Assembly (NCBI GenBank): GCA_019637435.1
Contig: JAHBVO010000002.1
Span: 372,001-436,000 of the forward strand
From: Candidatus Obscuribacterales bacterium
GTDB taxonomy: Bacteria; Cyanobacteriota; Vampirovibrionia; Obscuribacterales; Obscuribacteraceae
DNA: 64,000 nucleotides
Direction of reading: 5' to 3'
Shown one piece after another: positions 22,003 through 27,366 of the stretch. The position numbers and the translations under genes are program-made. How positions within the stretch are numbered: the stretch's first letter is position 1; the number at the start of each line of letters is the position of its first letter. A model generated the notes under the pieces. That model was not told the DNA's origin. It saw nothing but the letters and a program-made list of their open reading frames with translations, and did no database searches.

Positions 22003-23859
22003 TTGAACACTCGAAACCGACGCGCTGTCCGACTGGCTTTCATTCTATTCGTACTCGGTATTTTTCTCACTCAAAGTCAGCAGCTTGCTAGTGGCGTGGC
22101 TGTTGCAGAACCGGCGAAAAATAGCGGCAGCGAAGTGAATAGGCCGATCAAGGATAAGTGGGCCGTGGTGATCGGAGTGAGCAAATTCAAAGATTCATCG
22201 ATCAATCTTCGATTTGCGGCCAAGGACGCCAAAGATTTTGCTGAATATCTCACTACTGAAGGCAATTTCCAGAAAGACCATGTTCTGGTACTTACTGATG
22301 AAAACGCCACTAGAGAAAATATTCTGACGGCACTTGGTGACAAATGGTTGCCGCGACTAGCAAATCCGGATGACCTCGTTATGGTCTATGTCTCCAGTCA
22401 TGGAAGCCCGGCTGACCTCGATGTTGGCGGAATCAATTATATTGTGGTGCATGACACCAATATCGACTGTCTGTATGCCACAGCCATCCCACTTCAGTAT
22501 CTGATTGAAATCATAAGAACGCGTGTCCATTCGGACAGAGTAATAATGATTCTTGATACATGTCACAGCGGCGCGGCTCGGGTTGAATCGAAAGGTTTAA
22601 GCCGCATAAATAACGTGGATGCGCAAGCAATCGTCGCCGGAACCGGTCAAATGGTAATTGCTTCAAGTTCGCCAAGTCAGCGCTCTTGGGAAGGAAAAGA
22701 ATACAGCAATAGCGTTTTCACGCACCACCTTATCAACGCGCTCAAGAGCGGTGGCAGCAAAACGACTCTGGGGGCGGCTTTTGAAACAATGAAAGAAGGC
22801 GTTCAGGAGGAGGTTCTGCGCGACCGAGGTACTCTGCAAACCCCGGTCATCAAAAGTGCATGGAAAGGTGATGAACTGGCTGTTGCGACCTTGCCGACAA
22901 AAACGAGATCGGCAGCAGTTGATTGGCAGATTGAGCCACCACCAACGACAGCGACTACCATAACAGCCACTCCGAGCAAGGCTCCGGATCTGGTGGCACA
23001 CGCACAGGTCACGCCGGGTATGAGTGCTCCCACCAAAATCAATTCTAACGTCTTCGAAATAGAGGCACTACCTGCGATACCGCCTGTTACAGTGCTGGAT
23101 AATGGAAACATCTACAAAGTTTTCAATAAACCAACCCGACCAACGTTCTTTAGTCTCTCGTATCCTGCGCTGCTCACTTATATTTACACCTATCACTGGA
23201 ATGACGCGCGCGGATTCAGACCGGGTCAAATCGCTGTTCAGCATGAGGACGGCACGACCTATGGGCCCTGGAAGGCGACCGGTAAACCCGGTCAAGGTGG
23301 CGTTCCCAATGCATACTGGGAAAGTGAACCGTTGGTGCAGTTGAAAGCTGGTACTTACACCATTATTGACAGTAATCCGCCCTCTTGGTCGCAGAATGAA
23401 GGCACTCGCGGAGCGGGCTTTGCTCGCGTCCGTGTCGCGCCGCTGGTTGAGACGGTTGATTCCAACACCGGAAAATCTTTGAAGAGATCTCCCGAGATTA
23501 CGTTTTTCAAAAACGGCAATATCTACGCCGTCAATAATGGCGGTTCACAGCCGTCCTTCACAGTGAGAGTCCCGACTCTCGTAACCAAAGTAGGCAATTA
23601 CCATTGGAATTACGGACGCGGTGCCAGACCCGGCACGATTGCGCTCCGCCACGAGGATGGCACCACATACGGTCCCTGGCAGTCCAACGGTCGCTCCGGG
23701 CAAGGTGGCGCGCCGGAAGCCTACTGGGAGTGCTCTGTCGACACTGTGATCAAACCGGGAGTCTACCGCGTGGTTGATAGCGATCCGGCAACATGGTCAC
23801 AAAATGAATTGACCAACGGAGCGGGAATCTCTGAAATCACCGGAGTCTATCAAGAGTAG
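22003..23859 (+). CDS. Secreted caspase-like (C14) peptidase with two C-terminal beta modules
   Basis: After a signal peptide (LAFILFVLGIFLTQSQ) comes a peptidase C14 domain (about residues 50-290): AVVIGVSKFKDSSINLRFAAKDAKDFAEYL, the catalytic His133 in SSHGSP and Cys187 in LDTCHSGA. The aspartyl or basic specificity cannot be told. A Thr/Pro-rich linker leads to two homologous modules of about 115 residues (near 362-477 and 500-616), each with NGNIY, HEDGTTYGPW, GQGG-x-P-x-A-Y-W-E and WSQNE. The start is TTG, supported by GGAG 9 bases upstream. Orthocaspases are usually cytosolic, so the signal peptide is notable. Confidence 0.88.
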   Translation: MNTRNRRAVRLAFILFVLGIFLTQSQQLASGVAVAEPAKNSGSEVNRPIKDKWAVVIGVSKFKDSSINLRFAAKDAKDFAEYLTTEGNFQKDHVLVLTDENATRENILTALGDKWLPRLANPDDLVMVYVSSHGSPADLDVGGINYIVVHDTNIDCLYATAIPLQYLIEIIRTRVHSDRVIMILDTCHSGAARVESKGLSRINNVDAQAIVAGTGQMVIASSSPSQRSWEGKEYSNSVFTHHLINALKSGGSKTTLGAAFETMKEGVQEEVLRDRGTLQTPVIKSAWKGDELAVATLPTKTRSAAVDWQIEPPPTTATTITATPSKAPDLVAHAQVTPGMSAPTKINSNVFEIEALPAIPPVTVLDNGNIYKVFNKPTRPTFFSLSYPALLTYIYTYHWNDARGFRPGQIAVQHEDGTTYGPWKATGKPGQGGVPNAYWESEPLVQLKAGTYTIIDSNPPSWSQNEGTRGAGFARVRVAPLVETVDSNTGKSLKRSPEITFFKNGNIYAVNNGGSQPSFTVRVPTLVTKVGNYHWNYGRGARPGTIALRHEDGTTYGPWQSNGRSGQGGAPEAYWECSVDTVIKPGVYRVVDSDPATWSQNELTNGAGISEITGVYQE

Positions 23860-24444: not shown

Positions 24445-25416
24445 TTATGGTATTAAATCCGGTGTGCTCTTGTATAGATACCTGATGGTTGCAATGTCGC
24501 TGGCCGACAAAACGCCGTTGCCATAGTACATGCTCATGAGATCGCCGGGATTTTTGCTATGGCCGTCGATTCCGAGAGCGTGTCCCATCTCGTGACCGGC
24601 CGCGGCACGCATCTTTTCAATCGGCATTGATTGACCTTGCTTTTCGGTGCAGCGAAGCAGAACAACTACCGGTCTGAAGTTCGCTTTCTTTCCCTGAAGA
24701 ATGGCTTGATAAGGAAAGCAGTTTTTAGAGGTGTAACCTCTGATGTCACTCGCGAAGAGCCCAAGTCCCAGCTTATTTACGAAGTGGTGGACGAAGAACA
24801 CGTGGATGTCGGCTTCCATCGGATCATCGGTGAATTCGAAGGACAATAGACCTTCCTTTTCAAACCTTTTCCAATAGTTGATACCCTCGATCGCCGCTTG
24901 TCTGTGTTGTGGAATAAAACCTTCCGCTTGCGGAAGGCTCTGCAACTGTCCGTTTTGAAGCACCGTGGCAATGAAATCCGGCCACGTATTGACGGCGTCC
25001 ACGTTGACATATGGTGCGCCGAGCTGCGGATCAAGTATCTGGTCGATCGCCAGTCCGTTTGAAACCCAGACGTGGAGCGGCATCTGATCCGGAATCCAGC
25101 GAATCACTCCATGGGCACTCTTGAATTCCGGGTAAACTCCGGTTCCCGTCTGCATGGCGGCTGGCCGCTTTGCTCCGCCAGTTGATATCGGCGCATTTTG
25201 CCGGATAATTTGCTGCTGTTGTTGCGGACGCGTGCTCGCGCTTCCGAAACCTGTTACTGGTGGCAGGTTCGTATAGCGGTTCTTAAACTGCGCCTGGGTA
25301 GGGGCAATCGTTGCCAGAGCGACGGTTAACGCGAGGCATGCTACGGTTGCAAGTACGACAAGAGTGGTTAACGACGATCGCTTTGGGTTTGAATACTTGG
25401 CTTTTAAGCTGAACAC
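24445..25416 (-). CDS. Matrixin-like zinc metalloprotease, exported
   Basis: The GTG at 25416 is the likely start, with GGAAAG in front and an N terminus that gives a good signal peptide (LTTLVVLATVACLALTVALATIAPTQAQ). The catalytic motif is HEMGHALGIDGH (His275, Glu276, His279), with the third His one position later than in classical MMPs, a form I recall from cyanobacterial proteins. It is followed by a Met-turn-like DLMSMYYG. The middle includes WPDFIATVLQNGQLQSLPQ and an extended FEFTDDPMEADIHVFFVHH strand typical of the edge strand in metzincins. A secreted protease is indicated; substrate unknown. Confidence 0.82.
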   Translation of the reverse strand: MFSLKAKYSNPKRSSLTTLVVLATVACLALTVALATIAPTQAQFKNRYTNLPPVTGFGSASTRPQQQQQIIRQNAPISTGGAKRPAAMQTGTGVYPEFKSAHGVIRWIPDQMPLHVWVSNGLAIDQILDPQLGAPYVNVDAVNTWPDFIATVLQNGQLQSLPQAEGFIPQHRQAAIEGINYWKRFEKEGLLSFEFTDDPMEADIHVFFVHHFVNKLGLGLFASDIRGYTSKNCFPYQAILQGKKANFRPVVVLLRCTEKQGQSMPIEKMRAAAGHEMGHALGIDGHSKNPGDLMSMYYGNGVLSASDIATIRYLYKSTPDLIP

Positions 25417-25935
25417 GGTTATCTTTCCGCTCTGAATTGTTACAGACCCGTAACTAGATGATACAAGTATATGCCACAACTTGCTCAGTGAATGAGCGCG
25501 GCAGAAGCGCAAGGAAGTTTGTCCTGCGGAAACAATTACATGAGCTGGGCGTCATTAGTTAACAGTGCGCCAACCGGTTCAAAAGTCTGAAAACATAGAT
25601 GAGATCATGGTTTCCACGCATTGGCCGCAGCGCATTGTAAACGGTTTTGTTATACACAATTGTGAACGGAACCTTAAAACTCTACCCCAGTAGGCGTTTC
25701 ATGCGCTACAAATATGTCTACGACGCAGCCACTCAAGTGAGAGGTATCAGGGATGAAACCTGTCGGGGCAGTACCGACCCTGCGAACAATTTCTCGAAGA
25801 TGGACGATTCGCTAAATCCCCGACAAAGTTGGGGATTTTTGCATTAGTGCCCTTCCGCGCAGCATGCTAAATTTATGCGGTAAATGACGAGTCAGGCTCG
25901 TCTCCGTTGAAACTTAGCCTGTGGGTAACTTACTA
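25417..25935. other. 519-bp intergenic region with probable short RNA or glmU leader
   Basis: The region lies between a minus-strand gene and glmU, with no plus-strand gene feeding into it, yet it ends in a strong plus-strand terminator (25814-25840). A transcript must therefore start inside it, plausibly near TATACA at about 25651. Several small hairpins are visible (CAGG/CCTG near 25749-25762, CGAA/TTCG near 25795-25811). It does not match the conserved cores of SRP RNA, tmRNA, RNase P or the riboswitches I can recall. The 66-codon frame at 25647-25847 runs through the terminator and is unlikely to be coding. Confidence 0.45.
25814..25840 (+). terminator. Orphan Rho-independent terminator upstream of glmU
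   Basis: An 11-bp stem (25814-25824 with 25828-25838, one G-U pair), a 3-nt AAA loop and a run of five T (25836-25840). It is the cleanest terminator in the window, although no plus-strand gene precedes it. Confidence 0.85.
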
Positions 25936-27366
25936 ATGACTGCATCGAAAAGACCTTTAAGAGCCGTGATCTTGGCTGCCGGACAGGGCAAGCGCATGAA
26001 ATCGCGCAAGCCGAAGGTTTTGCATGACGTTTTAGGACTCTCGATTCTTTCTCGAGTCATCAAGGCCGTAATGGCTCTTGGCGTGGAGCATGTTCACATC
26101 GTAGTCGGGCACGAGTCAGAACAGATTAAGGACTACCTGGAAAAACATCACAGCACTGCCATTACCGAAGATTTTAAAACGATCTCACCTATCACAACTC
26201 ACCTGCAGGAGCCGCAGTTGGGGACCGGACATGCTCTCATGCAAGTGGCGCCGTATCTGAAAGATTTTAACGGCGACCTGCTAGTGACCGTGGGAGATGC
26301 TCCGCTGTTGACCGGTGAGACGCTCGCGCCTCTTCTGGAGACGCATGTTAAGGATAATGCTACGGTCACCATATTAAGTACCATTGTTCCTGATTCGAAA
26401 AACTACGGTCGTGTACTTCGTGATGAAAACTGCAGAGTCCGAGGCATTGTCGAAGACAAAGATGCCAGCGAGGAAGAGAAGAAAGTCAACGAAATCAACT
26501 CAGCGATTTACTGTTTCAAATGGCCCGATATAGAAGAAGGTCTGAAGGGTTTGAAAAACGACAACAAGCAAGGTGAATATTATCTCCCGGATCTGGCAGC
26601 CTGGGCGGTTTCCAAAGGGCTAATCCTTTCCGCATCAGTCGCAGAAGATTATCGAGAGGTTGCCGGGATTAACTCACGAGTTGAGCTCGCCGAAGCAATC
26701 AAGGATCTGCGCGATCTGACAGCCGAAAAGCTTGCGCTCGAAAGTGGCGTGACCATTGTCGATCCCGCATCCACATGGATATCACCTGAGGTCACGGTGG
26801 GTCAGGACTCAACGATTCTTCCGGGCACGCACTTGATGGGGAACATCAAGATTGGCTCGAATTGTGTAATTGGACCAAACACTGTTATGAAGGGTAATGT
26901 CGTTATCGGAGATAGAACCTCGGTGGTACTGTCTATGGTGCAGGACTCGAACATAGGCGAGGACTGCAAAGTCGGACCATTCTGTCACGTCCGAGAGGGC
27001 AATACCGTAGGCAACAACGTGAAGCTCGGAAATTTCGTAGAGATCAAGAAGAGTAACATCGGAAACAAAACCAATGTCGGTCATCTGAGTTACATCGGTG
27101 ATACCACTCTTGGTAGCAATGCCAATATAGGTGCAGGCACCATCACCGCAAACTACGATCACTTGACGAAGAAGAAACATAAAACTGCTATTGGTGACGG
27201 CGCTTCCACTGGCAGTAATTCAGTATTGGTCGCGCCAGTTTCAATCGGCGATAAGGCCGTAGTCGGAGCCGGAAGCGTGGTCACCAAGGACGTTCCATCA
27301 AGCGCTCTAGCCGTGGCGCGCTCCCAACAGAAGAACATTGATGGTTGGGCAGATCGCGAACGGTAA
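25936..27366 (+). CDS. glmU: Bifunctional GlmU: glucosamine-1-phosphate acetyltransferase / GlcNAc-1-P uridylyltransferase
   Basis: GlmU makes UDP-GlcNAc for peptidoglycan and lipopolysaccharide. The N-terminal uridylyltransferase shows LRAVILAAGQGKRMKSRKPKVLHDVLG, the LGTGHALMQ nucleotide site, VTVGDAPLLTGETL and INSAIYCF. The C-terminal left-handed beta helix has hexapeptide repeats ending in IGAGTITANYDHLTKKKHKTAIGDGA, with the catalytic-region motif NYDHLTK, then GAGSVVTKDVP. The total length is normal. The ATG at 25936 is preferred over the GTG at 25921, although neither has a strong ribosome-binding site. The upstream terminator suggests that expression may be attenuated. Confidence 0.96.
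   Translation: MTASKRPLRAVILAAGQGKRMKSRKPKVLHDVLGLSILSRVIKAVMALGVEHVHIVVGHESEQIKDYLEKHHSTAITEDFKTISPITTHLQEPQLGTGHALMQVAPYLKDFNGDLLVTVGDAPLLTGETLAPLLETHVKDNATVTILSTIVPDSKNYGRVLRDENCRVRGIVEDKDASEEEKKVNEINSAIYCFKWPDIEEGLKGLKNDNKQGEYYLPDLAAWAVSKGLILSASVAEDYREVAGINSRVELAEAIKDLRDLTAEKLALESGVTIVDPASTWISPEVTVGQDSTILPGTHLMGNIKIGSNCVIGPNTVMKGNVVIGDRTSVVLSMVQDSNIGEDCKVGPFCHVREGNTVGNNVKLGNFVEIKKSNIGNKTNVGHLSYIGDTTLGSNANIGAGTITANYDHLTKKKHKTAIGDGASTGSNSVLVAPVSIGDKAVVGAGSVVTKDVPSSALAVARSQQKNIDGWADRER

Follow-up and report, generated by a model that had tools for sequence, protein, structure and literature searches.

A four-way-junction RNA upstream of glmU that very probably represents a previously undescribed, Obscuribacterales-specific small RNA family

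When an intrinsic terminator stands in front of an essential gene with no plus-strand gene before it, the question arises as to which transcript it ends. Such a terminator is found in the stretch of 64,000 nucleotides analysed here (the window), from a member of the Obscuribacterales, an order of non-photosynthetic bacteria related to cyanobacteria, mostly uncultured and little studied. On the plus strand, positions 25814-25840 hold the inverted repeat AAATCCCCGAC-AAA-GTTGGGGATTTTT, forming an 11-bp stem (25814-25839) with a 3-nt loop and a U-tract to 25840. The site occupies the gap between a divergent minus-strand gene for a matrixin-like metalloprotease (24445-25512; Peptidase_M10, 6.9e-07), the conserved upstream neighbour, and plus-strand glmU (25936-27366; NTP_transferase plus hexapeptide repeats; start at ATG 25936 or GTG 25921), the downstream neighbour at the ancestral locus. 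A caspase-like (Peptidase_C14) gene is found near the matrixin gene, at 22003-23859. The sequence-only reading of this locus had described the best terminator of the window in an intergenic region lacking any plus-strand gene. Its superlative has to be dropped, as, on hairpin energy alone, about 15 T-tailed hairpins elsewhere in the window outscore this one, and a simple terminator scanner omits the site because T's are absorbed in the stem. The setting itself is confirmed, in that stem and U-tract are present and a 66-aa ORF at 25647-25847 had no match in a Pfam search. Reading this ORF as protein-coding was rejected on that ground and because it crosses covarying helices: it runs through the RNA fold described below, copies of which differ in length by 1-3 nt. 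The 206 nt comprising the upstream region and the terminator (25640-25845) fold better than 200 of 200 shuffles (z -2.9).

When positions 25600-25925 were compared by blastn with 60 related genomes, 21 of them matched, and the part common to the matches was not the terminator, it was a core of about 70 nt. Alignment of 26 copies (MAFFT, alignment A1) yielded one single fold, a four-way junction, whose 61-nt core lies at 25724-25784 (+) of the window and scores 87.5 bits with covariance model R1 (G000:C2:397724-397796). Helix P1 (CGCAG/CUGCG) closes the junction of P2 (CUC/GAG), P3 (7 pairs, with the loop AGGGAU) and P4 (5 pairs, with the loop GGCAGYA). The covariation score of the 26 copies was 0.436, against 0.148 for shuffles and at most 0.10 for slid controls; with 99 copies it was 0.481, against 0.186 and at most 0.117, respectively. 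In the larger set, standard pairs fill 93.6% of the pair positions, 14 of 21 pairs show double-sided changes, and a mutual-information scan that ignored structure returned nine top column pairs, all of which are proposed pairs; these counts lean towards the model, since the 99-copy alignment (A2) was fitted to it, unlike the MAFFT alignment A1. The covariation among relatives that the sequence-only reading had suggested looking for is thus found, and the fold is conserved with covariation, as in autonomous structured small RNAs. Loops and P1 are almost invariant across paralogues, the AGGGAU loop being nearly so throughout the 99 copies. A P2-P4 tertiary contact (columns 11/21 with 49/53, and 13 with 54) was rejected, as parsimony counts only 4-9 independent changes.

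Outside the core, conservation extends in both directions. Upstream, glmU-side copies share a box, AACGGAACCTTAA in the window (25665-25677, +), with the family consensus AACGAAAGGTTAA, from which the 46 glmU-side copies depart by a mean of 1.96 mismatches versus 4.87 in shuffles; in each of the 7 genomes searched, the exact consensus is present a single time, always at the RNA. A probable -10 element, TACAAAT, follows at 25707-25713 (+), proposed from its fixed distance to the box: where both AACGAAAGGTTAA and TACAAATA are present, 27-29 nt separate them, while the distance from the -10-like element to the core varies between 17 and 55 nt. Fixed spacing on one side and variable distance on the other would suit a promoter whose leader varies in length, and conservation points to box and -10-like element as the putative promoter of the RNA. 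A generic sigma-70 promoter scan over all copies gave no clear enrichment. Downstream, the core is followed by a conserved single-stranded tail, R-N-C-A-W-U-U (25785-25796, +), with C in 99% and A in 100% of 105 copies at tail positions 3 and 4, and then by a linker around GAAGATGGACGATTCGC (25797-25813, +), conserved only in four related genera (g1, g2, g6 and g8). A search of five genomes for the complement of the linker gave no further exact match, and an antisense target was rejected, the one-mismatch matches being chance-like. Finally, a terminator lies within 70 nt of P1 in 67 of 114 copies versus 20 of 342 shuffles (6%), starting 7-51 nt past P1; about 40% of the copies lack one by this strict rule, some of them visibly carrying one nonetheless. 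A hidden transcript of 150-200 nt had been postulated for this gap. The RNA is strongly upheld by conservation, covariation, the shared upstream box, the terminators behind most copies and the copies that lack a co-directional gene downstream; its size is not, since the product would be nearer 100-125 nt if TACAAAT is the promoter.

How far does this RNA extend beyond the window? The covariance model (73 positions) finds it in 51 of 53 Obscuribacterales genomes, with 1-6 copies each and about 113 places in total. In one of the two remaining genomes (G022) the contig ends just upstream of glmU, and in the other (G021) no glmU was found in the assembly. The same model gave zero matches in 187 other genomes sampled from the class and in 385 other genomes drawn across the phylum. 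Of the 61 stretches that a pattern scan found across 84,980 species genomes, most bear the name Obscuribacterales, Obscuribacter, Melainabacteria or Cyanobacteria in their titles and some are called simply 'bacterium'; those checked among stretches titled Actinobacteria, Chloroflexi or Proteobacteria match contigs of genomes from the window's own family (G005, G033 and G009). A pattern search of 2.9 million viral contigs gave no match, and a mobile or phage element was rejected as an explanation, given also that synteny is conserved at two loci and that only the copies in G033 and G024 look element-borne. The Rfam search that had been proposed assigns the RNA to no Rfam 15 family: at the gathering score the tRNA alone was matched in the window, nothing was matched in 25400-25960 at E<=10, and nothing was matched at E<=0.5 in six further loci with copies. 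The RNA is also absent from the literature, as searched among openly licensed PMC papers only. Taken at the level of sequence, the hidden transcript is very probably real and would belong to a previously undescribed small RNA family specific to the Obscuribacterales.

Two old paralogues exist, and the order's second family has both of them as well. Type A lies beside matrixin and glmU, and type B, which has an extra base in P4 and a different upstream box, CCCCACTGACA, lies about 100 nt 3' of a gene for a MerR-type regulator. Genera g7 and g12 carry a third form, which has C-G in P2 and GCGCAACACC in P4, and there are younger copies as well. Tandem duplications with copies 384-798 nt apart were seen at four loci (L128, L130, L144 and L203), and genes for ribosome hibernation factors lie near two copies (L147 and L178). 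Judged by gene calls from a simple longest-ORF script, 32 of 108 copies are followed by a gene on the opposite strand, usually behind a terminator. The RNA lies upstream of glmU in most genomes, though not in genus g24 and not at the other loci. In g24 it stays beside the matrixin gene, with glmU about 8 kb downstream where both share one contig and a convergent response-regulator gene in between; in the second family of the order, it lies about 25 nt before the glmU start with no terminator between.

In about a dozen copies there is no terminator and an ORF with a ribosome-binding site begins 17-53 nt further on, and part of the family may thus act in cis. The genes concerned encode universal stress proteins (in g24), a DUF2383 protein and an M48 peptidase, and in G033 they form a block of uncharacterised small genes in which a PD-(D/E)XK nuclease and an HD protein are also encoded. 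At three of these leaders (L178, L186 and L199) a universal stress protein gene immediately follows the RNA core. The ribosome-binding sites of L186 and L199 complement the core strand GGUUCUCC, with which they are paired in the predicted minimum-energy fold, so these two leaders could possibly be translational switches, as far as modelled folds indicate; in the predicted structures of L126, L178 and L189 the core stays folded. Arrays of the RNA were also observed, with four copies at L243:4129-8304 (G033:C150) and two at L241:17829-18436 (G024:C7). Mostly divergent, each of these copies stands before a small ORF in the PD-(D/E)XK nuclease/HD block, perhaps a mobile element that uses the RNA as an mRNA leader.

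The position upstream of glmU invites the reading, already raised from the sequence, that the terminator is conditional and belongs to the glmU leader, or more broadly that the core is a cis-acting aptamer or attenuator that senses a signal and thereby sets terminator formation or access to the ribosome-binding site of glmU and other genes. The place of glmU at the ancestral locus speaks for it, as do the second-family arrangement and the pairing predicted for the leaders L186 and L199. An attenuator, however, needs a terminator that is mutually exclusive with the core, and among the 67 copies concerned no excess of own-core pairing was found (-11.0 for the terminator arm with its own core, -10.8 ± 0.2 with other cores). 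The copies whose next gene is on the opposite strand, the separation from glmU in g24 and the leaders in which the core stays folded likewise count against it. A cis-acting role of the core is therefore unlikely as a general explanation, glmU attenuation was rejected as its main role, and a conditional glmU terminator is not supported family-wide; the RNA may still serve as a glmU leader in the second family, which has no terminator between the two. In a different reading, the RNA would silence mRNAs by base pairing, either through the AGGGAU loop, through CUCC of P2 acting against ribosome-binding sites, or through the linker GAAGAUGGACGAUU. Loop and tail are indeed mostly unpaired in the predicted transcripts, and the linker is fully conserved in the four genera mentioned above. 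Conservation nevertheless covers helix sequences and three separate loops rather than one seed, most genera lack the linker, whose complement gave no further exact matches, and the window copy has CUCC changed to CUCA, all of which makes base pairing an improbable main function.

Size and a stand-alone intergenic gene had also suggested an RNA resembling 6S RNA, which would regulate RNA polymerase. Such a function can be practically dismissed, because the RNA folds as a four-way junction instead of the long hairpin with its central bubble, no Rfam family matches the RNA, and 35 of the 53 genomes have weak full-length 6S candidates at loci other than this one. RF00013 (6S RNA) had no match at the glmU locus; the candidates include G000:C3:227192-227430 (L244), a weak full-length match of 28.8 bits, below the cut-off. 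Apparently, the 6S RNA of the order is divergent and unannotated. The new RNA shares with 6S RNA the stand-alone intergenic gene, and differs from it in fold and loci. It resembles orphan riboswitch candidates in its compact junction of several helices, its invariant loops and the few copies placed in mRNA leaders; unlike them, most copies have their own terminator and about 30% lack an adjoining co-directional gene. Parallels are also offered by the protein-titrating small RNAs of the CsrB/RsmY type, which likewise occur as several autonomous copies with differing promoters and terminators, carry a conserved GGA-bearing hairpin loop (here AGGGAU) and have their element also in the leaders of other mRNAs, although here each RNA has a single such loop, set within a defined four-way junction. 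A sponge for CsrA itself was rejected, since CsrA (PF02599) is present in only 2 of the 53 genomes, being absent from the genome of the window (G000), so that a different protein would be needed as partner.

The reading that best accommodates these comparisons is that of an autonomous small structured RNA with its own promoter, a four-way junction and an intrinsic terminator, which, judged by sequence, is likely to constitute a family specific to the Obscuribacterales. Comparison among genomes shows the RNA, its fold, the family, its range and its independence from glmU; expression and action in trans are presumed. Transcription would start from the RNA's own promoter just upstream (box at about -60, and TACAAATA), and the product of about 100-125 nt would fold into the four-way junction with its invariant loops and R-N-C-A tail before ending at the intrinsic terminator. 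That the loops are nearly invariant, and P1 and the R-N-C-A tail invariant, across paralogues with different promoters suggests that all copies bind the same partner, for which a protein is the simplest choice. The most likely mechanism, put forward tentatively, is that the core binds a dedicated protein, that autonomous copies with locus-specific promoters titrate it and so set the free amount, and that the minority of leader copies (before the genes for a universal stress protein, the DUF2383 protein and second-family glmU) would be targets of that protein. A more speculative and rather doubtful version takes a tRNA-like four-armed RNA as the core of a ribonucleoprotein regulator, whose copies would titrate or guide the protein and whose element would have been adopted as a leader by a mobile element and by stress genes. 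The resemblance to tRNA-like structures consists of the four arms, the 5-bp stem and 7-nt loop of P4, which recall a T-arm, the invariant R-N-C-A after P1, and the occurrence of U54 (P4 loop) only with A13 (P2 loop), a correlation that rests on few events. Unlike those structures, the RNA has a P1 of 5-6 bp, no variable loop and no T-loop sequence (P4 loop GGCAGYA), and ARAGORN called only a tRNA-Ala in the window and not the RNA core.

With regard to annotation in general, the locus is a reminder that an orphan terminator before an essential gene need not mean attenuation of that gene. The covariance model and the 99 aligned copies make the RNA annotatable and testable. Retained in nearly every genome of the order, represented by two old paralogues and marked by near-invariant loops, this RNA is probably important to these bacteria.
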